A stretch of 40,483 nucleotides of DNA from Anaerolineae bacterium (GCA_022616105.1 JAKEFL010000356.1:1-40483); one strand, 5' to 3'. Shown: positions 4,219-35,009, counted from the first letter of the stretch. Numbers and translations: made by a program. The notes: generated by a model not told the origin, from the sequence alone.

Positions 4219-5250
4219 ATGACTCGTCATTATTTTGTCACAGGGGGAGCAGGATTTATCGGATCGAACTATGTCCACAGGCTGATTCAGCGCGGCGAAA
4301 AAGTGACGGTCTTTGACAATTTGTCCCGTGCGGGTGCCGCGCGCAATGTCGCCTGGCTGGAGGAAACATTTGGGAAAGACGCGTTCAGGCTGATCGTCGG
4401 AGATTTGCGAGACGCTGACCTGATAAGGGAATCAGCGAAAGATGCCGATGTCATTGTCCATTTGGCGGGACAGGTGGCAGTCACGACATCCGTATTAAGC
4501 CCAAGAGATGATTTTGAATCCAATGCATTAGGCACGTTCAACGCGCTTGAAGCCGCGCGTTTATCAGAAAGAAGCCCGATCTTTATTTATGCATCCACAA
4601 ATAAAGTATATGGCGGCATGGAGGACGTGGAAATTATCGAGGAAGCGACTCGCTGGCTTTATAAGAACCTGGAGTATGGTTGTTCTGAAACTCAGCCGCT
4701 TGATTTTCATTCACCTTATGGATGCAGTAAGGGCACTGGCGATCAATATGTACGCGATTACGCGCGGATTTACGGCTTGCGCTCCGTAGTCTTTCGTCAA
4801 TCCTGCATCTATGGACCTCGTCAGTTCGGTGTGGAGGATCAGGGCTGGCTAGCATGGATGATGATCGCCGCAGTGACAGGACGGCAGATCACAGTTTATG
4901 GAGATGGCAAACAGGTGCGCGATGTATTGCATGTGAATGATCTATTGAATGCTTATGACACGGCAATTGAGAAGATCGATCGCGCGAATGGACAGGCTTA
5001 CAACATAGGCGGCGGGACGCGCAACGTGATGGCAATCTGGGCTGAGTTTGGACCCATCCTGGAGAGATTGGTGGGCAGGAAAATCGAAGTCGCGCGCGCC
5101 GATTGGCGTCCGGGCGACCAGCGCGTCTTTTATGCGGATTTTCGCAAAGCGAAACGTGAACTTGGCTGGGAGCCAAAGATCGATCTGGAGGAGGGAATGG
5201 AATTATTATTTAATTGGATCAATAAAAATAGAGAGTTGTTCCAGGCTTAA
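4219..5250 (+). CDS. NAD-dependent epimerase/dehydratase, CDP-paratose 2-epimerase-like (SDR family)
   Basis: This is an extended short-chain dehydrogenase of 343 residues. TGGAGFIGS at residues 8-16 is the NAD-binding glycine motif. The catalytic Tyr-x3-Lys is in SPYGCSKGTGDQY near residue 172. The blocks VYASTNKVYG-like (YASTNKVYG), LDFHSPYGCSKG and RQSCIYGPRQFGVEDQGWLA are, as I know the family, typical of CDP-paratose 2-epimerase (tyvelose epimerase). Such enzymes make nucleotide 3,6-dideoxy or related sugars for surface glycans. The substrate here is inferred only. A good Shine-Dalgarno AGGAG lies 4 bases before the ATG. It heads a run of envelope and glycosylation genes. Confidence 0.88.
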   Translation: MTRHYFVTGGAGFIGSNYVHRLIQRGEKVTVFDNLSRAGAARNVAWLEETFGKDAFRLIVGDLRDADLIRESAKDADVIVHLAGQVAVTTSVLSPRDDFESNALGTFNALEAARLSERSPIFIYASTNKVYGGMEDVEIIEEATRWLYKNLEYGCSETQPLDFHSPYGCSKGTGDQYVRDYARIYGLRSVVFRQSCIYGPRQFGVEDQGWLAWMMIAAVTGRQITVYGDGKQVRDVLHVNDLLNAYDTAIEKIDRANGQAYNIGGGTRNVMAIWAEFGPILERLVGRKIEVARADWRPGDQRVFYADFRKAKRELGWEPKIDLEEGMELLFNWINKNRELFQA

Positions 5251-8744: not shown

Positions 8745-9587
8745 ATGATGAAATCATCTCACACCGAAACACAAAGCCAGCCACTCAACATTGAAAGTGT
8801 AAAATCCAAAGATTTTTTATGGCTGAATATTCGAGATTTGCCCTACTTTCGTTCTTTACTGCGGGCAGTGGAAGCGCAGTTTTATCAGGATATCGATCTT
8901 ACAGCTCCTACACTGGATCTCGGCTGCGGGGAAGGACACTTCGCTGATCTGACCTTCGACCGAAAAATCCAGATGGGTTTGGATCCTTCGCGCGAGTCAC
9001 TCCAGGAAGCGAGAATGCGCCAAGCCTATTATCTGCTGGCTGAGGCTGATGCCGGCCGGATGCCCTACCCTGACGGATATTTCGCCAGCGTTTTTAGCAA
9101 TTCAGTGCTTGAGCATATCCCACACGTGGAGCAGGTATTAAGCGAAACAGCTCGTGTATTGAAACCGGATGCATTATTCGTGTTCTGTGTACCCAATCAC
9201 CGTTTCAATGATTTTCTCTCGATAGCCATGTTTCTGGATAAACTCCGGCTCACTGCACTCGCAAAACTCTACCGTACCTTTTTTACCTATATTTCCCGTC
9301 ATCGTCATATGGACAGCCCTGAAACCTGGAAGAGCCGCCTGGAGCAGGCCGGATTTGTAGTTGAGAAATGGTGGCACTATTTTCCGCCGAATGCTCTGGC
9401 AATGCTCGAATGGGGGCATTACTTCGGGTTGCCATCACTGATCATGCACAAGCTTACCGGTCGATGGATCCTTGTTCGCGAGTACTGGAATCTAATGCCG
9501 GTCTATCGCTGGCTACAACCATATGCAAAGGCTGTTGCCTCTGACGATGGTGTATGTACATTCTATATTGCCCGGCGAATTGGATAA
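8745..9587 (+). CDS. Class I SAM-dependent methyltransferase
   Basis: 280 residues. LDLGCGEGHFAD near residue 63 is motif I, the SAM-binding glycine loop. GLDPS is the acidic strand-2 motif. VFSNSVLEHIPHVEQVL near residue 117 fits motif IV/V of the Methyltransf_11 group. The C-terminal half contains aromatic and basic helices (WKSRLEQAGFVVEKWWHYFPP) that often bind lipid or glycan acceptors. In this context it probably methylates a sugar or glycolipid, but the acceptor is not readable. A second ATG lies one codon downstream (8748). The gene is preceded by a -10 hexamer with no ribosome binding site. Confidence 0.88.
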   Translation: MMKSSHTETQSQPLNIESVKSKDFLWLNIRDLPYFRSLLRAVEAQFYQDIDLTAPTLDLGCGEGHFADLTFDRKIQMGLDPSRESLQEARMRQAYYLLAEADAGRMPYPDGYFASVFSNSVLEHIPHVEQVLSETARVLKPDALFVFCVPNHRFNDFLSIAMFLDKLRLTALAKLYRTFFTYISRHRHMDSPETWKSRLEQAGFVVEKWWHYFPPNALAMLEWGHYFGLPSLIMHKLTGRWILVREYWNLMPVYRWLQPYAKAVASDDGVCTFYIARRIG

Positions 9588-9738: not shown

Positions 9739-11961
9739 ATGAATGACGAAATAAAAGAGACCGATCCATTGGAAGAGCCCAGTGTGCTTGATTACGTTAA
9801 ATCACTCTTTCGATTTGGCAATGGCGAAAGGATTCAGATCCCTTCTTTTGTGGAAGCTGAGCAGGAAGAATCTCAGCCCGCTCCATTCACTTTGACACAG
9901 CCTGAAATAATACCTGCTTCTGAACAAAGACTTCAATCTTTCGACAAAATTCAGGATGAGCCGTCACCCTTTACCCCTCATCCTTCCACGCCTTTCCCCT
10001 GGCGTTCCCTGTTTGCACTTTTCCTTGCGCTGCTCGGACAAAATTTCTTCGAGCCACCACAGACTTCTCTAAGCATCGGATATGCTTTTTATATCGCCAC
10101 ATTTTCCTTGCTTGGTTGGGCAATTTATCGCGGCGAATGGACTCTGGCTCCGCTTCCGCCTTCTTCCGAAGGCACAGATCCGCTCACGTATCGCCCACTT
10201 CCTTTATTCATCAGCATTGCGTTGGCATTATTGGCATTTATTATATTGGGTGACAACCTGTTCACTTTTACAAATGTTGTGGTCTGGAGTTCCGCGGTTG
10301 TATTTCTCTTATCGGCACTCTGGCTAAAAGGGAAAGATACCTGGTCTCTGCAAAAAACAATCGCATTTTTCAAACGCGATCCGTGGACGATCAATATCTC
10401 GCGTTGGACGCTGCTCCTGCTGGCTGCAACCGCGCTGGTGTTTTTCTTCCGTTTTTATCAGACCGTTGGCGTGCCACCTGAACCATTTAGCGATCATGCG
10501 GAGAAGATACTTGATGTCTATGATATTTCACAGGGGCAAACGTCTATCTTCTTCATTCGCAATACGGGTCGTGAAGGCTTCCAAATGTATTGGACTCTGC
10601 TGGTTGCCAGGATTTTTGGCACAGGTCTTTCCTTCACCAGCCTTAAACTTGGCACAGCGATTCTTGGCTTTTTGACGTTGCCCTTTGTTTATTTGCTCGG
10701 AAAAGAGATCGGCGGGGCGCGCGTGGGACTGTTCGCTTTTATATTGACCGGGATTAGCTACTGGCCCAATGTGATCAGCCGCGTGGGATTGCGCTTCCCG
10801 TTGTATCCACTCTTCGTCGCGCTCACGCTTCTTTTTCTTATCCGCGGCTTGCGGACGCGTAACCGGAACGATTTCCTCCTCTCGGGCCTTTTTTTGGGAA
10901 TCGGCTTGCACGGATACAGCGCCATGCGGATCGTCCCGTTCGTTGTGGTTGCCATATTCGTGTTGTACTGGTTTCATTCCCAATCACAGGGCGCACGCAG
11001 GGAATTACCCATCTGGTTGACGATTCTCGCACTTGTATCCATGTTTGTCTTCCTGCCGCTTTTGCGATACTGGATGGATTATCCTGCAGAATATGGATAT
11101 CGGGTTTCCACACGCATGACCGGCCTCGAGCAGTCGATCACCGAACCTATCCCGAAAATCTTCCTTTCGAACGTCTGGAACGCGCTCAAGATGTTCAACT
11201 ATGATAATGGCGAGGTCTGGGTCGCCTCTGTGACCCAGCGCCCCGCGCTGGATGTTATCTCCGGCGCGCTATTCCTGATCGGCTTGGTACTGGTCATTGT
11301 TCGCTACATACGCAACCGTCACTGGCTTGATCTGCTTTTGCTGGTTTCCATTCCACTGCTGCAATTGCCGTCCACTCTTTCGCTGGCGTTCCCAAACGAA
11401 AACCCCACGCTCAATCGCGCGGGTGCTGCGTATATACCGGCATTCATCCTCGGGGCGATGGCGCTTGATGGCCTGCTGACCAGCTTCGGGCGTGGAAGGA
11501 TGCGAAGCGTCCTCGTGTGGATAATCTCAGGAGTCCTGCTTTATGCCTCTGCTTCCCAAAGTTATGACCTGGTCTTCCGGGAATATAAAGAGTTTTTCCG
11601 CGAGGCTTCATGGAATACATCCGATATAGCCAGGGTGATCAAGGAGTTCGAACTAACTTTTGGCAGGACAGATACCATATGGGTGGTGCCGTTCCCACAT
11701 TGGGTAGATACCCGCCTGCCGGCCGTTTGGGTGGGCATTCCAGATCGCGACATGGCGATGTGGCGTGAGAACCTGCCAGACACGGTAGAATTAACAGGAC
11801 CAAAGCTATTTATGGTGAAGGCTGATGTTGAAAACCCGGACGGGAACGATCAGGAATCATTGAACGTCTTGCGAGAGCTATACCCAAATGGGCAGTTGCG
11901 AATGTTTGACTCAGACGTGCCCAGGCATGATTTCTGGATTTTTCTTGTGCCAAATCAATAA
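9739..11961 (+). CDS. GT39/PMT-like multi-pass glycosyltransferase
   Basis: 740 residues. Residues 1-85 are hydrophilic and acidic, with no signal peptide, and should be cytosolic. About twelve membrane helices follow, then a soluble C-terminal domain from about residue 620. After the first helix group an external loop carries VPPEPFSDHAEKILDVYDI, the position where GT39/ArnT-like enzymes carry the acidic catalytic motif. The block LNRAGAAYIPAFILGAMALDG is typical of this fold. Such enzymes move a sugar from a polyprenyl-phosphate donor to a protein or lipid on the outer face of the membrane. The donor is unknown. A cloverleaf-like repeat separates it from the next gene. Confidence 0.78.
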   Translation: MNDEIKETDPLEEPSVLDYVKSLFRFGNGERIQIPSFVEAEQEESQPAPFTLTQPEIIPASEQRLQSFDKIQDEPSPFTPHPSTPFPWRSLFALFLALLGQNFFEPPQTSLSIGYAFYIATFSLLGWAIYRGEWTLAPLPPSSEGTDPLTYRPLPLFISIALALLAFIILGDNLFTFTNVVVWSSAVVFLLSALWLKGKDTWSLQKTIAFFKRDPWTINISRWTLLLLAATALVFFFRFYQTVGVPPEPFSDHAEKILDVYDISQGQTSIFFIRNTGREGFQMYWTLLVARIFGTGLSFTSLKLGTAILGFLTLPFVYLLGKEIGGARVGLFAFILTGISYWPNVISRVGLRFPLYPLFVALTLLFLIRGLRTRNRNDFLLSGLFLGIGLHGYSAMRIVPFVVVAIFVLYWFHSQSQGARRELPIWLTILALVSMFVFLPLLRYWMDYPAEYGYRVSTRMTGLEQSITEPIPKIFLSNVWNALKMFNYDNGEVWVASVTQRPALDVISGALFLIGLVLVIVRYIRNRHWLDLLLLVSIPLLQLPSTLSLAFPNENPTLNRAGAAYIPAFILGAMALDGLLTSFGRGRMRSVLVWIISGVLLYASASQSYDLVFREYKEFFREASWNTSDIARVIKEFELTFGRTDTIWVVPFPHWVDTRLPAVWVGIPDRDMAMWRENLPDTVELTGPKLFMVKADVENPDGNDQESLNVLRELYPNGQLRMFDSDVPRHDFWIFLVPNQ

Positions 11962-11962
11962 C

Positions 11963-12089
11963 ACTCGGTGGTTGAGTAGTCCCGCGAGATTTTTGCGGGA
12001 CGTATCGAAACCACCTATTAGCAAAAATACTTTATGTAATATGCTGGTTTCGATATGGCGGACGAACACCGCCTACTCAACCAGCGAGT
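11963..12089. repeat. 127-base GGTTGAGTAG element with cloverleaf-like folding
   Basis: The outer arms ACTCGGTGGTTGAGTAG (11963-11979) and CTACTCAACCAGCGAGT (12073-12089) pair with one mismatch. Inside are three stems: TCCCGC/GCGGGA (11980-11985, 11995-12000), TATCGAAACCA/TGGTTTCGATA (12003-12013, 12045-12055) and GGCGG/CCGCC (12057-12061, 12069-12073). It fills the whole gap between the two GT39-type genes. A partial relative (GGTGGTTGAG...TCGAAACC) lies at 24936-24963. No coding capacity: a non-autonomous palindromic element. Confidence 0.85.
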
Positions 12090-12098
12090 AATTAATCA

Positions 12099-15000
12099 AT
12101 GAATCGAGATAAATACTTCTGGCTTTATGATGTTCTCTTCCTGCTTGTGCTTGTACTGGCAGGCTATTTGCGTTTGACAGGTGTGGATTGGGGTGAGGCA
12201 CAGCACCAGCATCCTGATGAAAATCATTTCACCAGTGTGCTCGAAAGCCTGCGCGCGCATGAATGTGATGACCCAGCCATTCCCGTGGAAGCATGCCCGC
12301 CAGAGCAAAAACGCTGGATCAGTATCGGGGACTATTTTAACTCTTCTACTTCAACGCTGAATCAATATAATCGTGGCTTCTCCTTTTATGTCTATGGCAA
12401 CCTGCCAATGACCATTACCCGCATTGCCGCGGAAGCCTTCGATCAAACAAACTTAAGAATATTCGGCCGTCAGGTCTCCGCGCTCACAGACCTGCTTGCT
12501 ATTTTGTTCCTATACCTGATCGTCTCGCACATGTATGGACGACATGTTGGACTCCTTGCATCCTTATTCTCAGCATTGACAGTGATGCAGATCCAGCAAT
12601 CCCATTTCTTTACGGTGGATTTGTTTGTTAACACGTTTGCATTTATCGCAATCTATTTTGCGGTCTTGATTTTGGAGAATAAGACAGAGAGTGGAAAGGA
12701 TGGATTGGAGGCTCCTGTCGCTGTGCCAGGGAGTGTTAGTGACTCTGGTGGGATGGGAGATAACTTGCAATCTATCGTCTCTGATACACAATTCACAAAC
12801 ATTCAATCCCCAATTTCCAGTTCTCCAATTATTAATTTCCGGTCGCTGATCTCTGATCGAGACTTCCTGTTTAGCCTTGGCTTTGGTGTCGCGTATGGTA
12901 TGGCATTGGCGTCCAAAGTCAATATATATCCATTGGCAATTCTATTACCAGCCGCGTTTGTGCTGCGCTATGTTATCAATAAAAAAGAAGCTGCTGCGTT
13001 AGGCGGCGTCCCCGCCGCCGGTACCGCTGCGCGGCATCTTCGAGACGGCGGCTTGGGCATTTCCAATTACTGGTTGATCATTCTTGCCTGTCTGATCGCT
13101 GGTGGACTGGTGTCATTCATCTCCTTCCGGATCTTCCAGCCCTATGCCTTCGATGGATTACTGCCCAGTGAACAATGGATCACGAATATTCAGGAACAAC
13201 GCGCACAAGCTACGGGCGAGGGAGACGTTCCGTGGAACTTGCAATGGGCGCGGCGCACTCATTTATATTCGTTCACGAACTTAACACTTTACGGTCTTGG
13301 GCTTCCGCTTGGCATTCTCGCCTGGGCTGGCTTTCTCTATATGGGCTGGCGCATCCTCAAAGGCGAATGGCGTCACGCTTTGCTCTGGGGATGGACGGCA
13401 ATTTATTTCCTCTGGCAGTCTCTTCAGTTCAACCCAACGATGCGCTATCAACTGCCGATCTATCCGCTGTTGGTGATGATGGCAGCCTGGGTGGTATTCC
13501 AGCCGATCCGCAATAGACAAGACTCAATTGATACGCAACACATAATACGCAATACACAATACTCCCTACGTAATCCGTACTTCGTATTGCGTACCCTCAT
13601 TACCATCATCGTCGTTGGCTTAACCGCCGCCTGGGCATTTGCCTTTCACAGCATCTATTTGCGACCCGAACCCCGTATCGCAGCTTCACGCTGGATCTAT
13701 CAGAATGTTCCTAGTCCCATTAATTTGAAGATTGAAAGAACAGATGCCCCAATATACAATCAGCCTCTATCATTTCCTGCCGGAATTTATATCCAGCCAG
13801 ATTCACCATATCAGACCACATTCACTGCCCAAAACGATGGTTTGTTAAAGGAAATTCTGCTCGCTCATGTTGCGACTGCTCCAGATCAAGCATCGTCACA
13901 GCTGTATTTGACTATATGGCAAGACCTGAACGCTCCGCAGCCTCTTGCATCAGCTTTTACAACAATGCCATTTGAGAATGAGTTGAATGGTATATCGCAA
14001 GTAGCCAATTTCGATCAATCTCCTGTTTTAACAGCGAATCAAATCTATTATCTGAAGTTGGAAACGAACGTTCCTGATGGAAGAGTGAACGTCTGTGGTC
14101 CCCTGAATATATTGATTCAGGGTGTCGATCAGGAAATGGAACAAGTCATTGATCTATCAGCACCCTGTACTGTTGGTCCTGACACTCCATATATAGCAAC
14201 GTTTATTCCACAAACTACGGGCACCCTCAATACAATTGTGCTGGAACATGTTACAAATCTAAATTCAACTGCAATGTCCAACGCCCGCACTTTAAGTCTT
14301 TTTATTTCAAAGCAGCCAAATTCAACGGTTGAGGAATCGATCGCAAGAGCTTCCCTGACCGGGAATTTTGCGGCGTCTCAGGACCCGCGTGGTGATTCAT
14401 ATACCTTAACCCTTGATCAGCCTATTGAAGTCGAACGCGATACACAATATTACCTTCAACTTGAAGTCGATTCCGGCTTGCTTTCCTTAACCGGCGCATC
14501 CATCTCAAACGAAACAGATTACGACTATGGACTCCCTTTCCGCCTGGACAGCTACGACGCATTCGGCGGTATCTATCGCGGTGACCTCAACTTGCAAGTC
14601 TATTGGGACGATAATGCGGAGAAACTCACTCGTTTTGTAACAACGCTCGACCAGACCGATACCATCTTCATCCCCACCAATCATCAATACGCGCAGATCA
14701 CGCGCGTGACGGAACGATACCCGCTTACCACACTTTACTATCGCGAGCTGATTGGCTGTCCAGAAGACAAGGATATCATCTGGTGTTATCACACCGCGAA
14801 ACCGGACCAGTTCAAAGGTCGATTAGGATTCGATCTCGTTGCCGTCTTTGAAACGTATCCAACGCTTGGTCCAATCGTCATCAATGATCAGTGGGCAGAG
14901 GAAGCCTTCACGTTCTACGATCATCCAAAAGTGTTGATCTTCAAAAAGGGTGAAGATTTCAACGTCGCGCAAGTACAGTCCATTCTCAGCACTGTGGATT

Positions 15001-17579
15001 TAACGAAGGTTGTCCGGCTCACCCCAACTCAATTCAATGATTACTCCAATCTGCTTTTACCAGCAGATAAACTCGCTCAACAGCGCGCCGGTGGAACGTG
15101 GTCTGAGTTATTCAGTTATGATTGGATACAAAATCGCTATCCTGTCTTGGGCCTGGTGATCTGGTATCTTTTTATTTTCATACTAGGGTTGGCAGTTTAT
15201 CCATTGATACGACTGGCGATGCCTGGGCTTGCAGATAAAGGTTACCCTCTCAGCCGTGCGTTGGGATTGGTCCTCTTTGGTTATCTTGCGTGGATGGCTG
15301 GTTCAGTTGGAATCCCATACACGCGCCTTTCAATCGCGGTCATCTTCAATCTCATACTCATCACTGGGCTTCTACTTGCGCGTTATCAAAGTGATGAGAT
15401 CCGTGAAGAATGGAGAAACAATCGCAAGTACTTCCTCATGGCAGAGGGACTCTTCCTTGCCTTCTTCCTGATCGATTTATTGATTCGCTTCGGCAATTCG
15501 GATATGTGGCATCCCGCCAAAGGCGGCGAGCGTCCGATGGATTTTTCCTATTTCAACGCGATCATCAAGAGCACATCCTTCCCACCTTACGATCCCTGGT
15601 TTGCAGGCGGGTACATCAATTATTACTATTATGGTTTTGTGCTGGTCGCCACACCAGTAAAACTACTGGGTATCGTTCCCACAATTGCATACAACTTCAT
15701 TTTGCCAACATTATTTGCCATAGTCGGTATTAATGCTTTCTCTATCGGGTGGAATCTTCTCGCCAGCAGTCCCCTCTCCCAGCGGGAGAGGGCGGAGGGT
15801 GAGGGAGAAACAAGTTACCCTTCACCATTTACCGCAGGAATTTCCGCCTCATTCCTTACCATCCTCCTCGGCAATCTTGGCACGATCCAGCTCCTTTATC
15901 AAAGGCTGCAACAACTCGGCGCGCTTGATCAATTTACTACTGATGCGACTATCCTTCAACGTTGGACGTGGGCCCTTCAGGGACTTCTGTTGACTCTCAA
16001 AGGCTCCTCGCTTCCAATCGGATTTGGAGACTGGTACTGGAACCCAAGCCGAGTCATCCCTCCCGGCGGAGGGAACGAGATCACCGAATTTCCGTTGTTT
16101 ACCTTCCTCTACAGCGACCTGCACGCGCATATGATTGCGATGCCGCTTGCATTGCTCGCATTGAGTTGGGCACTCGCCGTCTTAGGCGGCCGCGCCAAAT
16201 GGAAGAATCCGTTGGCGGCTGGGTTGGGATTCGCAGTCGGCGGTCTCGTGATCGGCGCGTTGTATCCCACCAATCTATCAGATATTTACACCTTCCTACC
16301 CATTGGCCTCGCAGCAGTCGGGTATACCATTTGGCGATACACAGATGGAGTTTCCACTGCAAAACGTATTGTACTTGTCATCGGAGCATTGGTTACACTG
16401 ACCATTTTATCGTTTGTTCTGTATCAACCTTATCGCGATTCATACAGTCAGGCGTATAGCGCGCTTGACCCATGGAGGGGTCCATACACACCGCTCTGGT
16501 CATATCTCACGCATTGGACAGTGTTCCTGTTTATCGTGGCTTCATGGATGGCATGGGAAACGCGCGAGTGGATGGCCTCAACTCCCGTTTCAGCGTTGCG
16601 AAAACTGAAACCTTATCAACTACTGATTGTGAGCGCTTTGGTTATATTTGTGCTAACCTTGTTTGCACTTCAATTCCAGCAGCTCGGACCAGACGTTGAA
16701 CATAGAGGAACAAGCGTTGGCTGGATCGCTTTGCCTCTGGCGGCGTGGGCGGGTGTATTGTTGCTACGTCCGAACCTGTCTGATTCAAAACGATTCGTGT
16801 TGTTCCTGATCGGCACTGCATTGCTTATTACGATTGTTGTGGATGTTGTGGTTGTGCGCGGTGACATCGGCCGCGCAAATACGATATTCAAGTTCTACTT
16901 GCAGGCATGGATGTTATTGGCAGTCAGCGCGGGTGCCGCATTCGCATGGACGCTGCCCGCGTTCTTCAAATGGCTCCCAGGCTGGCGCGTTTTCTGGCAG
17001 ACAGCTATGATCCTTCTCATTGCTGGCGCGGCGTTATTTACTGCGAGCGGCACAGCCGGCAAAATACGCGACCGTTGGATTGTTGAAGCCCCGCGTACGA
17101 TTGACTCGATCACCTTCATGAACTATGCAAATTACGATGACTTTGGTCAACGCCTGGATCTGCGCGAAGATTACCGCGCCATCCGTTGGATGCAGGACAA
17201 TGTAAAAGGCTCACCTGTAATCGTCGAAGCCAACTGCCCTGAGTATCGCTGGTGCACACGTTACACGATTTATACAGGCTTGCCTGGCGTGGTTGGCTGG
17301 AATTTCCATCAACGCCAGCAACGTGCCTTTAACTCTACCTGGGTGGAGGCTCGTGTTGCCGAGGTCGGCAATTTTTACGGCACGATTGATATTGAAGCGG
17401 CCCGCGATTTTCTCGAGCGGTATGATGTGCGCTATATCATCGTCGGTCAGTTGGAACGCGCAGCATATAAATCTGAGGATCAAGGCAATGGACTTTCAAA
17501 GTTTGAAGAATTCGATGGAACGTACTGGAACGAGGTATACCGGGATGGTAATACGGTCATCTATGAGGTAAAGTCTTGA
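12099..17579 (+). CDS. Giant GT39-like / Chlor_Arch_YYY (DUF2298) fusion membrane protein
   Basis: 1826 residues. Residues 1-540 form a GT39-like membrane domain; GVDWGEAQHQHPDENHF near residue 28 holds the acidic PDE motif. Residues about 540-845 are two tandem beta-rich modules, probably outside the cell (PYQTTFTAQNDGLLKEI and PYIATFIPQTTGTLNTI start the two copies; QIYYLKLE and TQYYLQLE end their cores). About 1010-1826 is a full YYY domain with Y1175-Y1178 and G1179 (the YYYxG motif), ending in a soluble part with IYTGLPGVVGW and RYDVRYIIVGQLERAAY. YYY proteins occur in Chloroflexi and some archaea; function unknown. Repeat-derived in-frame segments interrupt it near residues 223-256, 298-320, 478-499 and 1223-1242. 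A role in envelope glycosylation is inferred from the GT39 half. Confidence 0.85.
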   Translation: MNRDKYFWLYDVLFLLVLVLAGYLRLTGVDWGEAQHQHPDENHFTSVLESLRAHECDDPAIPVEACPPEQKRWISIGDYFNSSTSTLNQYNRGFSFYVYGNLPMTITRIAAEAFDQTNLRIFGRQVSALTDLLAILFLYLIVSHMYGRHVGLLASLFSALTVMQIQQSHFFTVDLFVNTFAFIAIYFAVLILENKTESGKDGLEAPVAVPGSVSDSGGMGDNLQSIVSDTQFTNIQSPISSSPIINFRSLISDRDFLFSLGFGVAYGMALASKVNIYPLAILLPAAFVLRYVINKKEAAALGGVPAAGTAARHLRDGGLGISNYWLIILACLIAGGLVSFISFRIFQPYAFDGLLPSEQWITNIQEQRAQATGEGDVPWNLQWARRTHLYSFTNLTLYGLGLPLGILAWAGFLYMGWRILKGEWRHALLWGWTAIYFLWQSLQFNPTMRYQLPIYPLLVMMAAWVVFQPIRNRQDSIDTQHIIRNTQYSLRNPYFVLRTLITIIVVGLTAAWAFAFHSIYLRPEPRIAASRWIYQNVPSPINLKIERTDAPIYNQPLSFPAGIYIQPDSPYQTTFTAQNDGLLKEILLAHVATAPDQASSQLYLTIWQDLNAPQPLASAFTTMPFENELNGISQVANFDQSPVLTANQIYYLKLETNVPDGRVNVCGPLNILIQGVDQEMEQVIDLSAPCTVGPDTPYIATFIPQTTGTLNTIVLEHVTNLNSTAMSNARTLSLFISKQPNSTVEESIARASLTGNFAASQDPRGDSYTLTLDQPIEVERDTQYYLQLEVDSGLLSLTGASISNETDYDYGLPFRLDSYDAFGGIYRGDLNLQVYWDDNAEKLTRFVTTLDQTDTIFIPTNHQYAQITRVTERYPLTTLYYRELIGCPEDKDIIWCYHTAKPDQFKGRLGFDLVAVFETYPTLGPIVINDQWAEEAFTFYDHPKVLIFKKGEDFNVAQVQSILSTVDLTKVVRLTPTQFNDYSNLLLPADKLAQQRAGGTWSELFSYDWIQNRYPVLGLVIWYLFIFILGLAVYPLIRLAMPGLADKGYPLSRALGLVLFGYLAWMAGSVGIPYTRLSIAVIFNLILITGLLLARYQSDEIREEWRNNRKYFLMAEGLFLAFFLIDLLIRFGNSDMWHPAKGGERPMDFSYFNAIIKSTSFPPYDPWFAGGYINYYYYGFVLVATPVKLLGIVPTIAYNFILPTLFAIVGINAFSIGWNLLASSPLSQRERAEGEGETSYPSPFTAGISASFLTILLGNLGTIQLLYQRLQQLGALDQFTTDATILQRWTWALQGLLLTLKGSSLPIGFGDWYWNPSRVIPPGGGNEITEFPLFTFLYSDLHAHMIAMPLALLALSWALAVLGGRAKWKNPLAAGLGFAVGGLVIGALYPTNLSDIYTFLPIGLAAVGYTIWRYTDGVSTAKRIVLVIGALVTLTILSFVLYQPYRDSYSQAYSALDPWRGPYTPLWSYLTHWTVFLFIVASWMAWETREWMASTPVSALRKLKPYQLLIVSALVIFVLTLFALQFQQLGPDVEHRGTSVGWIALPLAAWAGVLLLRPNLSDSKRFVLFLIGTALLITIVVDVVVVRGDIGRANTIFKFYLQAWMLLAVSAGAAFAWTLPAFFKWLPGWRVFWQTAMILLIAGAALFTASGTAGKIRDRWIVEAPRTIDSITFMNYANYDDFGQRLDLREDYRAIRWMQDNVKGSPVIVEANCPEYRWCTRYTIYTGLPGVVGWNFHQRQQRAFNSTWVEARVAEVGNFYGTIDIEAARDFLERYDVRYIIVGQLERAAYKSEDQGNGLSKFEEFDGTYWNEVYRDGNTVIYEVKS
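12991..13058 (-). repeat. GC-rich element inserted in frame in the GT39-YYY gene (inverted copy)
   Basis: The reverse complement begins GCCCAAGCCGCCGTC and contains GGCGGCGGGGACGCCGCC, matching the intergenic element at 5252-5316. It codes for residues about 298-320 (AAALGGVPAAGTAARHLRDG), a hydrophilic, Ala/Gly-rich loop between two membrane helices. The reading frame is kept. Confidence 0.75.
13531..13593 (+). repeat. TACGTAATCCGTA-type palindromic repeat inside the GT39-YYY gene
   Basis: TACGCAATAC (13546-13555) pairs exactly with GTATTGCGTA (13584-13593), and TACGTAATCCGTAC between them matches the arm of the intergenic element at 2101-2147. It codes in frame for the polar stretch TQHIIRNTQYSLRNPYFVLR just before a membrane helix. 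Confidence 0.7.
15772..15812 (+). repeat. CCCTCTCCC/GGGAGAGGG hairpin element inside the GT39-YYY gene
   Basis: CCCTCTCCC (15772-15780), loop AGC, GGGAGAGGG (15784-15792), followed by a GGAGGGTGAGGGAGA tail. This is a known widespread type of bacterial intergenic palindrome. Here it is translated in frame as SPLSQRERAEGEGE (from residue 1223), a charged loop between membrane helices of the YYY domain. Confidence 0.8.
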
Positions 17580-17935
17580 TCTTTCACATTACATCACGCA
17601 CTGAATGGGAAGAGGCACAGCAACGCGGTGACTATCGCGCCGAAAGCCTGGCAACGGAGGGATTCATCCATTGTTCGACTCCTTCGCAGGTTTTGCCTGT
17701 TGCGGAGAATTTCTATAAAGGACAAAGCGGACTCATCCTCCTCATCATCGAACCGACGCTTCTTTCCTCGACTTTGAAATGGGAGCCACCATCCGGCGGA
17801 ACTCCACCTGCGGGCGTCCCAGAAGGAGATTCATTTCCACATGTCTATGGACCAATCAATTTGAATGCCGTGATCAAAGTCCTTGACTTCGAGCCAAACA
17901 CTGATGGCATGTTCACCATTCCCGCCAACCTGTAA
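17576..17935 (+). CDS. DUF952 family protein with a Pro/Gly-rich insert
   Basis: A 119-residue soluble protein starting with TTG, which overlaps the upstream stop by four bases (TTGA). It matches DUF952: IFHITSRTEWEEAQQRGDYRAESL, the conserved EGFIHCSTPSQV block near residue 30, and FPHVYGPINLNAVIKV near residue 83. Biochemical function is unknown. Between KWE and FPH lies PPSGGTPPAGVPEGDS (about residues 66-81), longer than I would expect in the family. Its DNA is GC rich and may be another in-frame repeat. The gene is small, cytosolic and sandwiched between two giant membrane genes, so co-expression may be a matter of position only. Confidence 0.85.
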   Translation: MIFHITSRTEWEEAQQRGDYRAESLATEGFIHCSTPSQVLPVAENFYKGQSGLILLIIEPTLLSSTLKWEPPSGGTPPAGVPEGDSFPHVYGPINLNAVIKVLDFEPNTDGMFTIPANL

Positions 17936-18052
17936 CTCACAATTCGTAATTCGCAACTCGTTTCATCAAATCGTAAACACTTGCACCGCACGTGATTTGC
18001 TAAGCAAATCATGCAGGTATCTGAAATCGTAAATCTGAAATCGTAAATCGAA
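17936..18052. repeat. Composite repeat: ATCGTAAATC units around a CACTTGCACC element
   Basis: The gap holds ATTCGTAATTCGCAACTCG, then ATCGTAA, then the element 17977-18018 (ACACTTGCACC, a GATTTGCT-A-AGCAAATC palindrome at 17994-18010, ATGCAGGT), then two further ATCGTAAATC units leading to the next ATG. The same arrangement recurs in coding sequence at 18287-18345. No ribosome binding site is seen before 18053. Confidence 0.75.
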
Positions 18053-20605
18053 ATGCTTTCCTTCCTCTCCTGGTACATCCTCATCACCTTTCTCGGCTGG
18101 CTCACCTTTCCGCTTGCCTATCAACTCTTCCCCGCCTTGACCGATCGCGGTTACACTCTTTCACGCGCCTTCGGTCTGTTGGTCTGGGGATATATCTTCT
18201 GGCTGTTTGCATCACTCGGCATCGCACAAAACGATATAGGCGGGCTGCTGCTTGGGCTGGTCATCCTGGGAGGATTAAGCGCATGGTCAATCGTCAATCG
18301 TAAATCCGAAACACTTGCACCTGGCGCAAGTGCAGGTGTCGTAAATTGGCTTGACTCGAATCGCCGTCTCATTATCACCACCGAACTCCTCTTCCTCACA
18401 GCCTTCGTCCTTATGGCATTTTTCCGCGCTGCAAACCCGGAAATCGTTGGCACTGAAAAACCAATGGAATTGATGTTCATCAACGGCATCATGAACTCGC
18501 CGACATTTCCTCCGCGTGATTTGTGGCTATCAGGATATTCGATCTCGTATTATCACTTTGGTTATGTGATGACATCCATGCTTGCCCTGTTCACAGGTGT
18601 GCCAGCGACAATAGCCTTCAACCTGATGATCGCGTTGATCTTCGGCTTGAGCGCAGTCGTGGCTTATGGGATTCTATATAATCTTCTCGCTAATCCCCAA
18701 ACTCATCAGGCAACGGATCATTCTGAAGCGAAGCGGAGTGGACGCAACAAGAAGCAAATTGCCAATCTTTCCTCTTTCCTCTTTCCTCTATTTGGTCCTC
18801 TCTTCCTCCTCCTCATTTCAAACGTTGAAGGCTTTCTCGAAGTATTGCATCGCAAAGGATTCTTCTGGCAATTCAATGCAGATGGTTCGGCATCATCGCG
18901 TTTTTGGACCTGGCTCGATATGAAAGAATTGAGTGAGGTACCGGCACAGCCCCTCCAATGGATTCCCGAGCGCTTCTGGTGGTGGTGGCGCGCCTCACGC
19001 GTCATACAGGATTATGACTTGAATGGCACATTCCGGGAAACCATAGATGAGTTCCCATTTTTCTCCTATCTGCTTGGGGATCTGCATCCACATGTACTGG
19101 CGATGCCTTTCACATTGCTGGCAATTGCTGTTGCATTAAATCTCTTCCTTGGCGGCTGGCGCGGGAACATGGATCTCTTTTTCGGTCAATTACGCATTAG
19201 CAGGACAGGTTTTCTTGTCATCGCGCTGGTATTGGGCGGGCTGGCTTTTCTCAATACCTGGGATATCCTCGTCGCTGCAGCGTTGATCGTTTTCAGCTAC
19301 GGGCTGGCTCGGGTCCGTGAGGCAGGCTGGAGTTGGGAAAGAGTCGAAGATGTCCTGTTGCTGGGAATCCCCGCAGCGATCACAGCCTTTGTAATGTATC
19401 TTCCGTTCTATATCGGTTTTGATTCGCAGGCAGGTGGGCTTACACCAAACTTTATGTACCCAACGCGCGGCGCGCATCTGTGGGTGATGTGGGGTACGCT
19501 TTTTATCCCGCTCTTTGCGTTTCTCATTTATCTGTGGCGAAGTGGTACGCCTGCACATTGGCGCGCAGGGATTTTTGGGACACTCGGTATTCTGCTCACG
19601 CTCCTCGCCGTGATGTTCCTGATTGGTCTCCTTGCGTTGAGACTGAAACCCGATCTTGTTGACCCGATCTTGCAGTCACAAGGACTGGATGTCAGTGCAT
19701 TTATTACTAATAGCATGATACGAAGGTTGACATATATCGGAAGTCTGATTACGTTGATGGCTTTAATGATCCCAACTTTTTCGTTTCTGGCAAAAGCCAA
19801 TGATGATTCAGAGACAACGGACAATTCCATCGTCAATCAGCCGTCGTCAATATTCTTTGTACTTCTGCTCATCTCTCTCGGATCACTCCTCATCCTCGGT
19901 CCCGACTTTATTTACCTGCGTGATAATTTCGGATATCGCATCAACTCGGTCTTTAAGTTTTACTATCAGGCATGGATATTGTTGAGTCTCGCCTCAGCTT
20001 ACGGGATCGTTGTCCTGCTTCGACGCTTCGACAATAGGACTCATCATTCATCTTCTTTCAGGGCACGGCACGGCGGAGCGAACATCGTATTCAGTGTACT
20101 CTTCACTATTGTGCTGATCGTTGGTCTGACATACCCCGCGCTAAGCATCTTCAGCAAGACCAACAATTTCAAACCTCCGTTTGGCTACACCCTCGATGAC
20201 TTCGACCGTGTGCAACGAGAGAATCCAGAGGAAGCAGCGGCAATACAATGGCTGCGATCCGCGCCGGATGGTGTAATTGTCGAAGCTGTTGGTGGAAGCT
20301 ATTCATCACAAGGGCATGGGCGCATTTCCATTTATACAGGTCTGCCGACTGTATTGGAGTGGCCTGGGCATGAAGGTCAATGGCGCGAACAAGCCCTGCA
20401 AGGGTCGCGCCAACAGGACATCGAAACCTTGTACTCCACAACCGATTGGGTCACTGCACAGGACATAATCAATCGCTACAACATCCGTTATGTTTTTGTA
20501 GGCAATCTTGAACGAAGTTCCTATCGCGTGAGCGAAGATAAATTCAATAGTTTTCTAAAACCTGCTTTTCAGCAGGGAATTGTGACAGTTTACGAAGTGC
20601 CATAA
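18053..20605 (+). CDS. Chlor_Arch_YYY (DUF2298) membrane protein, single-domain form
   Basis: 850 residues, within the 700-900 range I recall for single-domain YYY proteins. It is co-linear with the C-terminal half of its 1826-residue neighbour: FPALTDRGYTLSRAFGLLVWGY, then EKPMELMFINGIMNSPTFPP, then ISYYHFGYV at residues 165-172 (Tyr166-Tyr167-His168-Phe169-Gly170), so the third Tyr of YYYxG is His here. Both also share YLLGDLHPHVLAMPF / YSDLHAHMIAMPL and a soluble tail with IYTGLPTVLEW and RYNIRYVFVGNLERSSY. Polar inserts interrupt it at about residues 79-99 and 214-238. Function unknown; most likely an envelope glycan component because of its neighbours. Confidence 0.88.
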   Translation: MLSFLSWYILITFLGWLTFPLAYQLFPALTDRGYTLSRAFGLLVWGYIFWLFASLGIAQNDIGGLLLGLVILGGLSAWSIVNRKSETLAPGASAGVVNWLDSNRRLIITTELLFLTAFVLMAFFRAANPEIVGTEKPMELMFINGIMNSPTFPPRDLWLSGYSISYYHFGYVMTSMLALFTGVPATIAFNLMIALIFGLSAVVAYGILYNLLANPQTHQATDHSEAKRSGRNKKQIANLSSFLFPLFGPLFLLLISNVEGFLEVLHRKGFFWQFNADGSASSRFWTWLDMKELSEVPAQPLQWIPERFWWWWRASRVIQDYDLNGTFRETIDEFPFFSYLLGDLHPHVLAMPFTLLAIAVALNLFLGGWRGNMDLFFGQLRISRTGFLVIALVLGGLAFLNTWDILVAAALIVFSYGLARVREAGWSWERVEDVLLLGIPAAITAFVMYLPFYIGFDSQAGGLTPNFMYPTRGAHLWVMWGTLFIPLFAFLIYLWRSGTPAHWRAGIFGTLGILLTLLAVMFLIGLLALRLKPDLVDPILQSQGLDVSAFITNSMIRRLTYIGSLITLMALMIPTFSFLAKANDDSETTDNSIVNQPSSIFFVLLLISLGSLLILGPDFIYLRDNFGYRINSVFKFYYQAWILLSLASAYGIVVLLRRFDNRTHHSSSFRARHGGANIVFSVLFTIVLIVGLTYPALSIFSKTNNFKPPFGYTLDDFDRVQRENPEEAAAIQWLRSAPDGVIVEAVGGSYSSQGHGRISIYTGLPTVLEWPGHEGQWREQALQGSRQQDIETLYSTTDWVTAQDIINRYNIRYVFVGNLERSSYRVSEDKFNSFLKPAFQQGIVTVYEVP
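18287..18345 (+). repeat. Composite repeat inserted in frame in the YYY gene
   Basis: TCAATCGTCAATCGTAAATC is followed by ACACTTGCACCTGGCGCAAG and TGCAGGTGT (18311-18339), then CGTAAATT. This is the same two-family composite as the intergenic copy about 300 bases upstream. It codes for SIVNRKSETLAPGASAGVV (residues about 79-97), a hydrophilic stretch absent from the paralogous domain of the neighbour. Confidence 0.8.
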
Positions 20606-20611
20606 TGTTCG

Positions 20612-20659
20612 CCACAGAGTCGCGGGGACACAGAGATAAAAATCTCTGTGACTCTCTGG
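20612..20659. repeat. CACAGAG-type hairpin
   Basis: CACAGAGAT (20629-20637) pairs with ATCTCTGTG (20642-20650), and the outer CCACAGAGTC (20612-20621) pairs with the following ACTCTCTGG with one mismatch. It starts seven bases after the YYY gene stop and may act as a transcript end, although it lacks a T-run. Related CTGTGACTCTGTGTCTCAGT sequence lies at 20842-20862. Confidence 0.7.
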
Positions 20660-20702
20660 TCTTCTCAAAGTAGCTTGACAAATAGGCCCTTTTGGAACGC
20701 GA

Positions 20703-20740
20703 ACACCTGCACTGCACCAAACGCAGTGCGGTGCATGTGT
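20703..20740. repeat. CACCTGCAC/GTGCATGTGT element
   Basis: ACACCTGCACTGCACC, then AACGCAGTGCGGTGCA, then TGTGT. The core ACGCAGTGCGGTGCA is shared with 3944-3980. Confidence 0.7.
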
Positions 20741-20870
20741 ATCACGAATGAGCGAATTTCGCGAATTTTAATAGGCTTATTCGTGCCATTCGTACATTTG
20801 CACAATTCGCGTTAAGAATTTTTCGACTTTGAGAAAGTCATGTCTGTGACTCTGTGTCTCAGTGGCAAAC
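20741..20870. repeat. ACGAAT/CGAATT repeat and CTCAGTGGCAAACC end
   Basis: 20745-20815 is built of ATCACGAATGAGCGAATTTCG and ATTCGTGCCATTCGTAC units that partly pair with each other and with CACAATTCGCG. 20838-20870 is a CTGTGACTCTGTGTCTCAG element. Together with 20612-20740 these account for nearly all of the 291-base gap; no gene is seen. Confidence 0.6.
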
Positions 20871-20884
20871 CAATCAATCGAGGG

Positions 20885-20890
20885 TAAAAT
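20885..20890 (+). promoter_or_regulatory. -10 hexamer, leaderless start of the Agl23-like gene
   Basis: TAAAAT ends exactly 6 bases before the ATG at 20897, placing the transcription start at the start codon. The preceding AGGG is too close to the hexamer to act as a ribosome binding site. Confidence 0.5.
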
Positions 20891-20896
20891 ATCTTT

Positions 20897-22651
20897 ATGA
20901 ATTCCTCCCGACTTAAAAACGAAGGCTGGCTGTATTGGCTAGCCTTTCTTCTCGCCCTGGGTTTTCGATTCATCCAACTTGGTGCAAGCCCTTTAACCGA
21001 CTCTGAAGCAAATTTGGCTCTACAAGCCCTGCATATTGCGCAGGGCAAGAGTCCGTTGCTTGATCCTCAGCCTGCATACATTCTCTTTACCAGTATTCTT
21101 TTTGCGATCATCGAAAGCACGAACTTTATGGCGCGCTTCGTCCCTGCACTGATTGGGAGTACGCTTGTCTTTGTTCCTTATTTCTTTCGTGAAAAGATCA
21201 ACGCACGTCCCGCTTTGATCCTTGCCTTCCTCTTTGCATTTGATCCCGGGCTTGTCGCGCTCTCGCGCCAGGCAGGTGGAACAATCCTTGCAGTAACGTT
21301 TCTGCTGTTTGCCTGGGGGATGTGGATCAATCGACGCGCCATCCCAACCGGAATTTTCGCAGGCTTGGCGCTTCTCTCTGGACCTTCGCTGTGGGCTGGT
21401 ATCCTCGCCCTCGCGCTCACACGGTTTTTCTTACAAGGAATGCAATCAAGGATCAACACCGATCAGTCATCAATCGAAAATCGTAAATCGGAACTCGTAA
21501 ATCAAGAATCCCCAATTACTAATTACCAATTACAACCCGCCCTCCTCTCTCTCATCCTCACCCTCCTCCTCGGCGGCACACTCTTCTTTCTCTCACCCAA
21601 TGGACTCAGCGCGTGGCTTTCGTCTCTGCCGGAATATTTGGCAGGCTGGGTCTCGCCTTCTGCGATGACACCGGGACGTATGCTGCTGGCTTTTTTTGTG
21701 TATGAGCCACTGGGACTTTTCATCGCAGCGCTTTCGATCATTCGCGGCTTTCGAACGAAAAGCGAACATATCAATCGTTTGAGTCTCTGGCTTGGTGTCT
21801 CATTACTTCTTGGGATCTTTTATCGGCAAGCCACCGGACTCGTCTGGGTTATTGTCCCATTACTCACACTCGCTGCAATGGAGCTCTCGCGCAGTATGAA
21901 CATCCGTTCTGAGGAACGTGTGGAAGTTGGCGTGGTCGTCATGGCAGTACTTATTCTTTTGATATATATCTGGTTTAACATTTCCAATATTGCTGTCAAT
22001 CCATATACCCAGATTCCTGCTGTGATGCCGTTCTTTGGTGAAGTCCAAAATCCGCGCTACATGATCCTGTATGGCGCATCAGCAATACTTATTGTGTGCA
22101 TTATGATGGTGGGGTTTGGCTGGTCGCCGCGTACTGCGAGGCTTGGTACTGCATGGTCTTTTACGATCTTTTTCAGCGTTTACAGCCTCGCCGCAGCCTG
22201 GGGCGCAAGCGGATTAAGAAACCCAACCGGCGTGGAATTATGGACCCCAGACCCAAAACCTCTCCAGGCAGATTTGCTTCTCGCCAGCGTGAACGATATC
22301 TCTGAATTCAGTCTCGGTCACGTGAACTCTCAACCTGTCACCATTATGGGAATCGATTCGCCCGCACTGGAGTGGGTCCTGCGAAACCATGCAGTGGAGG
22401 TTGTTTCAGCGCTTGACCCGCAGGTCGCGCCGCCGCTTGTCATCACGCCACCCATGGACGACCTAAGCCTGCCATCCGCTTATCGCGGGCAGGATTTCAC
22501 CTGGAGACAAACACTATTATGGGATCAAATCCGAAACCCCGATTGGTGGAGCTGGCTGGTCTATCGTCAACTGCCAAGAGAAAATGAAATGATCGTCTTA
22601 TGGGCACGCGACGATCTGTTCCCAGATGCGCGCGAAAATACTGCTCCTTGA
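20897..22651 (+). CDS. Agl23-like (TIGR03663-type) multi-pass membrane protein
   Basis: 584 residues with about twelve hydrophobic helices. The N-terminal loop LGASPLTDSEANLALQALHI near residue 32 occupies the position of the acidic GT-C motif, here D-S-E. LSRQAGGTILAVTFLLFAWG and the C-terminal soluble part (SPALEWVLRNHAVEVVSAL) fit the family called 'flippase activity-associated protein Agl23'. As I recall, that family is found nearly always in genomes with YYY proteins and often beside them, which is the case here. This is family-level inference; a generic GT39 assignment is the alternative. A polar repeat-derived insert lies at residues about 192-213. Confidence 0.65.
   Translation: MNSSRLKNEGWLYWLAFLLALGFRFIQLGASPLTDSEANLALQALHIAQGKSPLLDPQPAYILFTSILFAIIESTNFMARFVPALIGSTLVFVPYFFREKINARPALILAFLFAFDPGLVALSRQAGGTILAVTFLLFAWGMWINRRAIPTGIFAGLALLSGPSLWAGILALALTRFFLQGMQSRINTDQSSIENRKSELVNQESPITNYQLQPALLSLILTLLLGGTLFFLSPNGLSAWLSSLPEYLAGWVSPSAMTPGRMLLAFFVYEPLGLFIAALSIIRGFRTKSEHINRLSLWLGVSLLLGIFYRQATGLVWVIVPLLTLAAMELSRSMNIRSEERVEVGVVVMAVLILLIYIWFNISNIAVNPYTQIPAVMPFFGEVQNPRYMILYGASAILIVCIMMVGFGWSPRTARLGTAWSFTIFFSVYSLAAAWGASGLRNPTGVELWTPDPKPLQADLLLASVNDISEFSLGHVNSQPVTIMGIDSPALEWVLRNHAVEVVSALDPQVAPPLVITPPMDDLSLPSAYRGQDFTWRQTLLWDQIRNPDWWSWLVYRQLPRENEMIVLWARDDLFPDARENTAP
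21471..21534 (+). repeat. ATCGTAAATC/CCAATTAC repeat units inside the Agl23-like gene
   Basis: CAATCGAAAATCGTAAATCG, CTCGTAAATC and CCAATTACTAATTACCAATT follow one another in frame, coding for SSIENRKSELVNQESPITNY. The same units make up the intergenic gap at 17936-18052 and the in-frame insert at 18287-18306 (IVNRKSE). Confidence 0.7.
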
Positions 22652-34994: not shown

Positions 34995-35009
34995 TATAAG
35001 GAAGAGGGT

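Follow-up and report, generated by a model that had tools for sequence, protein, structure and literature searches.

Glycosyltransferases of the GT-C fold carry a conserved catalytic acid in their first extracytoplasmic loop, before the first loop helix. In PMT enzymes this loop has an acidic dipeptide, the C-terminal domain of AglB holds the acceptor motif, and the donor of AftA is a lipid-phosphate-linked monosaccharide. GT-C fold proteins without transferase activity also exist, for example in the glycosylphosphatidylinositol (GPI) transamidase. Agl23 proteins (TIGR03663) have a DE dipeptide near the N-terminus, and their genes typically lie near a gene of the YYY family (DUF2298, Chlor_Arch_YYY, TIGR03662), which we take to be named after a YY(x)xG motif. 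The function of YYY, sought under DUF2298, Chlor_Arch_YYY, TIGR03662, TIGR03663 and COG5427, is not treated in the single literature collection that we searched; work elsewhere is possible. According to the available part of one study, translocation of a lipid-linked oligosaccharide in liposomes required added purified Rft1 or Haloarcula hispanica Agl23, the latter a putative dolichyl-phosphate-hexose flippase that suppresses the loss of yeast Rft1 (PMC11182771). Here, we analysed a stretch of 40,483 nt from an Anaerolineae bacterium (GCA_022616105.1, JAKEFL010000356.1:1-40483; hereafter, the window), which contains a block of large membrane-protein genes, two of them encoding YYY domains. A first-pass annotation, made from the sequence alone, had read this block as an envelope glycosylation machinery and had stated that neither YYY nor Agl23 has a proven reaction; for Agl23, that statement is outdated by the liposome translocation described in the available part of PMC11182771.

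The reading of the block as glycosylation machinery is supported by our analysis. We consider it likely that YYY is a family of GT-C glycosyltransferases of the subclass A type, and that the block encodes extracytoplasmic transferases using lipid-linked sugars. Four large membrane-protein open reading frames (ORFs) are open on the plus strand within positions 9739 to 22651: a PMT_2-type protein of 740 aa (GT39A, 9739..11961), a fusion protein of 1826 aa that ends in a YYY domain (12099..17579), a standalone YYY protein of 850 aa (18053..20605) and an Agl23-like protein of 584 aa (20897..22651). The first annotation had placed these four ORFs correctly and had overlooked a fifth gene, which encodes a small DUF952 protein of 119 aa (17576..17935, plus strand; PF06108, 105.4 bits against a cut-off of 23.7) and overlaps the end of the fusion ORF. 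The genome is a 4.04 Mb draft in 367 contigs, 88% complete, and the nearest kin of the window among the loci fetched are Anaerolineales.

Both YYY domains score far above the family thresholds. The domain at residues 1005 to 1826 of the fusion (15111..17576) and the standalone protein reach 482.8 and 480.6 bits with TIGR03662 (cut-off 300.25), and 364.7 and 347.8 bits with DUF2298 (cut-off 27.8), while sharing about 25 to 28% identity with each other. We aligned 96 YYY sequences: 62 of 80 standalone rows, which come from the window and 79 loci, together with 34 of the 66 rows taken from fusions. An AlphaFold2 model of the standalone protein built from this alignment had a mean predicted local distance difference test (pLDDT) score of 90.5 and a predicted template modelling (pTM) score of 0.94. 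Foldseek matched the model to CeDPY19 (E 3.2e-6) and AftA (E 7.7e-4). With VIA-align, the highest score was that of STT3 (Z 15.7, 467 residues, root-mean-square deviation (rmsd) 7.0), followed by AglB and ALG12 (both Z 13.5), AftA (Z 13.4, 498 residues, rmsd 5.0), ArnT (13.2), Pmt4 (12.3) and DPY19 (11.6). The top 41 rows listed (Z 7.6 to 15.7), judged by eye from their titles, were GT-C enzymes, one GPI-transamidase row and two isolated domains of oligosaccharyltransferase (OST); unrelated proteins start at Z 6.0 and lower. Residues 1 to 91, forming three helices, lie outside most of these matches and are partly covered by AftA and EmbC. YYY is, thus, predicted to have the GT-C transmembrane fold. 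The structural comparison with GT-C enzymes, which the first-pass annotation had proposed as its check, taking the absence of a GT-C fold as grounds for refutation, gave a match to the GT-C fold from this confident model.

The soluble tail of YYY (residues 718 to 850, 20204..20602) matched the C-terminal globular domain of archaeal AglB (3vu0_A, Z 11.4, rmsd 2.8, 112 residues). Because of this fold match, the shared tail can be regarded as a GT-C C-terminal domain; the motifs that had been noted in it beforehand, YTGLP and RYxxRYxxVGxLER, were found in both YYY proteins of the window.

These fold matches also bring in an alternative, in which YYY is an OST analogue that transfers an oligosaccharide en bloc from polyprenyl-pyrophosphate to surface proteins, as a stand-in for STT3 in Chloroflexota. 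The top Z score to STT3, the close score of AglB, both over 450 to 490 residues, and the fit of the tail to the AglB C-terminal domain agree with it. However, the WWDYG acceptor motif is present in 0 of 96 YYY rows, compared with 15 of 15 STT3 rows, which were themselves picked by this motif, and the YYY proteins of the window have no match to PF02516 (STT3) at E ≤ 1. Moreover, AftA aligns over a longer stretch and at a lower rmsd than STT3 (498 residues at 5.0 Å against 467 at 7.0 Å), and the partner genes, of the PMT_2 and Agl23 types, point to a polyprenyl-phosphate-hexose. Overall, we regard an OST analogue as unlikely.

Returning to YYY as a GT-C transferase using lipid-linked sugars, its polar residues were followed into 55 distant YYY domains, drawn from other Chloroflexota families, one Firmicute (a Pseudobutyrivibrio plasmid), one haloarchaeon (a Halarchaeum plasmid) and some near kin. 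Full-length distant rows are about 18 to 57% identical to the window YYY; identities were taken over all 850 positions, so that cut rows read low. The set holds one genome twice (G118, as L083 and L140), three near kin of the window (L157 to L159) and one badly aligned row (L142), which was counted. The family tyrosines Y166 and Y167 and the glycine G170 are invariant in the 96 rows and kept in 49, 49 and 48 of the 50 distant domains covering them. E135 (18455..18457) is present in all 96 alignment rows and in 49/49 distant domains, D156 in 48/49 and E333 in 49/49. In the motif D343-x-H345-x-H347 (19079..19093), located before helix 351-365 of the model, both histidines are found in 49/49 distant domains and the aspartate in 47/49, the other two having Cys. 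R629, N631 and K635, in the motif R629-x-N631-(T/S)-x-F-K635 (19937..19957), are conserved in 48/48 domains covering them, as are H773 and E820 of the tail, with R778 in 47/48. E744 is variable (38 E, 8 Q and 2 T).

In the model, a short helix (136-147) lies between two transmembrane helices and is directly preceded by E135. This residue would, in this position, be the first-extracytoplasmic-loop acid of GT-C enzymes and is a candidate catalytic acid; we infer that its loop lies on the outer side of the membrane. DxHxH is a candidate metal site, and the R-x-N-(T/S)-x-F-K residues are candidates for binding the lipid phosphate, a role suggested by the GT-C fold. The two proteins with Cys in place of D343 (L156 of genome G068 and L155 of G124) come from loci where the GT-C partner is not fused to YYY and Agl23-type genes follow YYY; they may form a separate lineage with an altered candidate metal site.

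This polar signature bears on a further alternative, that YYY has the GT-C fold and is non-catalytic, being a scaffold, donor-binding or flipping subunit (compare PIG-U of the GPI transamidase and the role proposed for Agl23) that serves the HPDE-containing unit of the fusion, described below, or GT39A. GPI-transamidase rows occur among the fold matches of both YYY and the N-terminal part of the fusion, and YYY is fused to or adjoins another GT-C unit, often near Agl23-type genes, all of which would suit an accessory subunit. A dense set of invariant polar residues across bacteria and an archaeon, in fused and standalone proteins alike, counts against it, as does the place of E135 before the first loop helix, which is that of the catalytic acids in GT-C enzymes. 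We consider a non-catalytic YYY very improbable.

The link between YYY, as a candidate transferase, and a second GT-C unit is direct in the fusion protein, which consists of an N-terminal GT-C domain, two beta modules, a soluble alpha/beta domain and the YYY GT-C domain. The N-terminal part scores 27.3 bits with PMT_2 (PF13231), barely over the cut-off of 26.1, in a partial match (profile positions 25 to 96 of 160). Its model (pLDDT 83.7, pTM 0.79) matched AglB with Z 28.3 (449 residues, model range 12 to 954), STT3 with 27.4, Pmt4 with 25.7, ALG12 with 25.2 and ArnT with 23.9. The acidic PDE loop reported by the first annotation extends to HPDE (residues 38 to 41, 12210..12221), resembles the acidic dipeptide in the first loop of PMT and is invariant in 58/58 aligned rows and in the 15 distant matches covering it; it is a candidate for the catalytic acid of this first domain. 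R449 and Y450 were found in 20/20 distant matches. The alignment kept 58 of 60 rows and excluded fusion ORFs of up to 1500 aa, such as the fragmented ones of L043 and L060. The fusion can, therefore, be described as a single chain with two predicted GT-C units; its YYY half is assigned by homology to the folded standalone YYY.

The beta modules (residues 541 to 804, 13719..14510), which show beta strands in the model, precede the alpha/beta domain and resemble CBM6, a carbohydrate-binding module (CBM; 2cdo, Z 7.8, rmsd 2.5, 102 residues), a match that is only moderate by the tool's own warning. Two modules, as described at the outset, are indeed present in the model of the window protein; most relatives have one, and the window is atypical. 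The N-terminal part measures at most 908 aa in 55/59 relatives against 1004 aa in the window, and the consensus has a single module. The doubling may also occur in L034, L039, L065 and L078, where this part has at least 930 aa.

That the fusion might be special to the window was rejected, since long YYY-bearing frames are frequent across the phylum. The frames listed with a TIGR03662 match fall into three ranges (about 740 to 1050, 1280 to 1860 and 2110 to 2770 aa), read here as single, fused and double-YYY proteins, as checked on distant loci. In the proteins of about 2100 to 2770 aa (G118:C1:1845661-1853321, G134, G166, G110 and others), a tandem YYY pair follows the GT-C N-terminal part; the second copy has W158 replaced by F, W312 by V or I in most cases, and E744 by Q or T. 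In G124 and G068, by contrast with the fusion, the N-terminal part has a frame of its own (618 and 642 aa, counted between stops), about 260 to 320 bp away from a standalone YYY; Agl23 genes are located on the opposite side. In the YYY phylogeny, 25 rows (20 fused, four second-copy and one unfused) formed one set with 99/95 support, and the standalone YYY of the window fell within 15 standalone rows (88/95, drawn open). The tree was rooted at the midpoint and has several long branches; it omits rows shorter than 600 aa and the poorly aligned row of L142, and two rows labelled as fused (L089 and L091, marked F) are probably second copies cut by the end of the locus. Given this placement, fused and standalone YYY are old paralogues kept side by side; that they form an obligate pair is a guess. 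The earlier argument that the fusion ties YYY to a glycosyltransferase dependent on polyprenyl sugars is strengthened by the separate, adjacent halves in G124 and G068 and by the single supported clade.

The remaining large proteins of the block fit the same picture to different degrees. GT39A exceeds the PMT_2 cut-off clearly (PF13231, 37.5 bits against 26.1), and its residues D252, E255, K256, R278 and E279 are invariant in the 47 of 58 rows aligned and in 5/5 distant matches. The Agl23-like label stands in the sense of a diverged relative; by the curated rule the protein is not a member of TIGR03663 (43 bits, rescored 41.2, against 126.25). The expected DE dipeptide is replaced by D-x-E, in which D35 is present in at least 90% of the 45 rows aligned (out of 54) and E37 is invariant; among distant matches, E37 is found in 8/8 and D35 in 3/8. 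A profile of this protein finds the TIGR03663-type neighbours of other YYY genes weakly (22 to 59 bits).

The block is conserved as a unit. A contig scan yielded 527 YYY relatives, the best 80 of which were kept for gene-order counts; each gene was counted only at loci with a long enough flank, so that denominators differ. The fusion lies directly upstream of YYY in 70/76 loci, and GT39A directly upstream of the fusion in all 60. The end of the DUF952 gene lies no more than 700 bp upstream of YYY in 75/79 Anaerolineae-type loci, while the Agl23-like gene follows YYY within 8 kb in 52/66 loci (within 1.2 kb in 50). Further upstream, a methyltransferase gene precedes the block in 54/63 loci, and a GT4 gene in 39 of the 61 with flank, many others of which may end too early. 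In a second group of loci, the gene order breaks past YYY. The order GT39-like, fusion, YYY and Agl23-like thus recurs in Anaerolineae relatives, and the family scores are far beyond chance.

Beyond these relatives, 144 of the 201 Chloroflexota genomes sampled have a TIGR03662 match, over the curated cut-off in 129, and the family also occurs in archaea. TIGR03663 exceeded its cut-off in 17/17 genomes selected for the presence of YYY and a low number of contigs, and in 0/60 genomes of a YYY-free order, where four weak matches were seen; of 14 control genomes, two passed the cut-off with each of the two families. Judged by eye, an Agl23-type ORF lies within about 5 kb of YYY in nine of the 17 near-complete YYY genomes and is over the cut-off in six of these. 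We also scanned ORFs adjoining distant YYY genes against control ORFs, taking 117 of 195 and 114 of 279, respectively, by a length filter and even sampling. Dropped from the scan were L152, L157 to L159 and two very long ORFs, and from the control L172, L177 to L179 and three very long ORFs; L147, for which the longest-ORF pick was antisense, and L167 were also excluded. PMT_2 was found in 6/117 ORFs adjoining YYY and in at most 1/114 controls, an upper limit that follows from its absence among the 25 control families listed. The expected association with glycan genes in other genomes is, therefore, borne out for PMT-type genes and not for a general glycan cluster: outside Anaerolineae, and among the 25 families listed, no general glycan-cluster enrichment near YYY was seen, and the idea of such a neighbourhood was dropped for other Chloroflexota.

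Two plasmid-borne YYY genes were inspected individually. On a rumen Pseudobutyrivibrio plasmid (L138, NZ_CP043029.1 61353-81521), a lone DUF2298 gene lies inside a surface-polysaccharide cluster, on the opposite strand to its neighbours, which include genes for an O-antigen ligase, a sugar-nucleotide epimerase, a GT2 and 'glucosyltransferase domain-containing' proteins. This plasmid may point to horizontal spread of YYY. On the Halarchaeum plasmid, no glycan-assembly genes were found near YYY.

The Pseudobutyrivibrio cluster is one of the observations in favour of another view of the acceptor, namely that the block adds side chains, as AftA- or Gtr-like enzymes do, to a polysaccharide or glycolipid of the envelope and not to proteins. 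The AftA fold match, the CBM-like insert and the GT4, epimerase and methyltransferase genes beside the Anaerolineae block also suit it. On the other hand, the tail of YYY has the AglB C-terminal fold, the commonest families adjoining YYY in other Chloroflexota include no polysaccharide-cluster genes, and a Chloroflexota archaellin is probably O-glycosylated at T66 and T145, according to the available part of its description (PMC12488501), where no enzyme is named. This view concerns the acceptor and is compatible with YYY as a GT-C transferase; we hold it to be a serious possibility that falls somewhat short of an even chance.

The distribution of STT3 relates to the OST-analogue alternative. 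PF02516 gave some match in 29 of 101 phylum genomes; 13 passed its low Pfam cut-off, 12 of them at no more than 33 bits. The only genome above 33 bits (G082) lacks YYY, and in its order STT3 was over the cut-off in 41/60 genomes (one marginal, at 24.8 bits), while YYY was found in none of the same 60. One STT3 protein of this order that was tested was AglB-like (E 2.8e-62), and 15 of 26 STT3 loci examined have an open frame of 650 to 1000 aa with WWDYG (for example, L131:139-2526). This avoidance, which agrees with YYY standing in for STT3, is striking, but it comes from a single order, and archaea do not follow it strictly, as the controls Haloferax volcanii and Methanosarcina acetivorans carry both families. 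A strict replacement of STT3 by YYY was downgraded on account of these two archaea and the 13 phylum genomes passing the low PF02516 cut-off.

Several results weigh against YYY as a GT-C transferase with lipid-linked sugar partners. The YYY fold comes from a model, and fold likeness by itself is no proof of function. Sequence searches of the PDB with the profiles of YYY, the fusion N-terminal part, the Agl23-like protein and GT39A yielded no convincing chain: at E ≤ 1 there were 15, 2, 0 and 1 matches, with a best value of 0.019 and no glycosyltransferase among them. In hhalign comparisons, STT3 matched YYY with 28% probability over a short local stretch, and YYY matched the fusion N-terminal part with 2%. 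Eight of the 17 genomes have no separate Agl23-type ORF near YYY, as judged by eye, and no TIGR03663 protein over the cut-off was found in the window's own genome, at its 88% completeness. Both the co-occurrence with Agl23 and the avoidance of STT3 are confounded by phylogeny. The absence of general glycan-cluster enrichment outside Anaerolineae and the bare surroundings of the haloarchaeal gene count on the same side.

Matches of the fusion N-terminal part to the reaction-centre O chain and 'Protein LRC' (E 0.019 to 0.078) were taken as chance. The other hhalign probabilities were unconvincing for the fusion N-terminal part against the Agl23-like protein (0.7%) and GT39A (15%), as well as for STT3 against GT39A (14%) and GT39A against the Agl23-like protein (0.4%); STT3 against the fusion N-terminal part was suggestive only (56%, E 1.1e-4). 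Because these profile comparisons are unconvincing, the kinship of the GT-C families considered here rests on fold.

The gene order, the predicted fold, the invariance of the polar site, the old fusion, the split homologues and the co-occurrence with Agl23 can be brought together, and we infer from them a scheme for catalysis, donor type, metal use, partner pairing, membrane sidedness and direction of transfer. The donor of YYY would most likely be a polyprenyl-monophosphate hexose, supplied with the aid of Agl23-type proteins. R629 and K635 may hold its lipid phosphate. E135, together with D156 and the DxHxH site and possibly via a metal, would bring the acceptor into position and activate it; this acceptor may be a surface protein or an envelope glycan. 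The AglB-like tail would line the acceptor side and help acceptor binding. In the fusion, the HPDE-type GT-C unit, with its CBM-like insert, and the YYY unit would act in sequence on one acceptor. The standalone YYY, as an ancient paralogue beside the fusion, is perhaps its partner subunit, comparable to the pairing of Pmt1 with Pmt2. GT39A probably represents a further, third GT-C enzyme, and the probable task of the Agl23-like protein is to flip the lipid-linked sugar or to pass it on.

A bolder version can be formulated, in which general protein glycosyltransferases comprise, besides STT3 and the bacterial O-oligosaccharyltransferases, YYY as a third class. YYY would then be a GT-C family that depends on a metal bound at DxHxH and is common to Chloroflexota, archaea and some Firmicutes. 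Within Chloroflexota, it would replace STT3 and work as an assembly line with two sites on a single chain: one sugar is added by the HPDE unit, the YYY unit adds the next or joins the product to protein, and the CBM-like insert holds the growing acceptor. We deem this version decidedly unlikely as a whole.

The DUF952 protein stands outside the proposed mechanism. Its solved relatives are 2o0q, 2o0p and 2jqn, and its Pfam clan is the ADP-ribosyltransferase-like superfamily, according to the available part of PMC7955679. An RNA element considered for the gap upstream of YYY was dropped, as Rfam gave no match in the window at gathering score and the gap contains the DUF952 gene.

Upstream of the block, all on the plus strand, lie genes for an NAD-dependent sugar epimerase/dehydratase (4219..5250; PF16363, 185.9 bits; PF01370, 178 bits), an alkaline-phosphatase-superfamily protein of the sulfatase fold with a twin-arginine-like start, RRDFLK (5355..6887; PF00884, 135.9 bits), a GT4-type glycosyltransferase (7467..8621; PF00534, 97.7 bits) and an S-adenosylmethionine-dependent methyltransferase (8745..9587; PF08241, 64.1 bits). 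The sulfatase-fold protein lacks the [CS]x[PA]x[RK] motif and has there the stretch TTPGAGSLLTG, with Thr replacing Cys/Ser; to judge from its sequence, it is perhaps an exported phosphotransferase or phosphatase with a Thr nucleophile. Downstream of the block, a cytidylate kinase and two acyltransferases are encoded. A lepA gene lies near the block (194-2089), and LepA_C was found in 3/117 ORFs adjoining YYY in other Chloroflexota, possibly an old shared gene context. At 34116-38910, yidC, jag/khpB, parA and parB follow one another, a row that resembles the set typical near a replication origin.

Relative to the literature searched, the GT-C assignment of YYY, as predicted from the model, is new, and with named residues it makes the family open to direct mutational test. 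Chloroflexota also gain candidate enzymes for surface glycosylation, for example of the probable archaellum O-glycans (PMC12488501, in its available part). Both YYY domains of the window belong to TIGR03662/DUF2298, whose members include long YYY-bearing frames, some with double YYY, across Chloroflexota. The family models give no function; the present analysis adds to them a predicted fold, a signature of conserved residues, a GT-C partner that is fused in the window and split off in homologues, and an accompanying gene set.

YYY shares with STT3/AglB (GT66) the predicted GT-C fold, an acidic first loop and a C-terminal globular domain like that of AglB, whereas it has neither WWDYG nor a PF02516 match and carries extra N-terminal helices (1-91); where YYY has DxHxH, OST has an acidic motif. 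The matches to AftA (GT85) and EmbC start at residues 20 to 24 and take in part of these extra helices, but identity is about 11% and the PDB search by sequence did not find these enzymes. As for PMT (GT39), both GT39A and the fusion N-terminal part exceed the PMT_2 cut-off, whereas the latter is joined to beta modules, an AglB-like soluble domain and YYY, and its top Z score is to AglB, with Pmt4 2.6 lower. The window protein is a diverged relative of Agl23 of Haloarcula hispanica at a YYY-adjacent place, where TIGR03663 genes over the cut-off are found in 6/17 other genomes (by eye); it differs in its sub-cut-off score and in having D-x-E for the DE pair. A precedent for the carbohydrate-binding insert is GT136 (ORF12 of Citrobacter youngae), described in the available part of PMC11127046 as a GT-C enzyme with an appended CBM that uses a polyprenyl-phosphate sugar. 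GT136 is a single GT-C unit in a polysaccharide locus, whereas the fusion has two predicted GT-C units per chain, an arrangement old enough to be widespread in the phylum.

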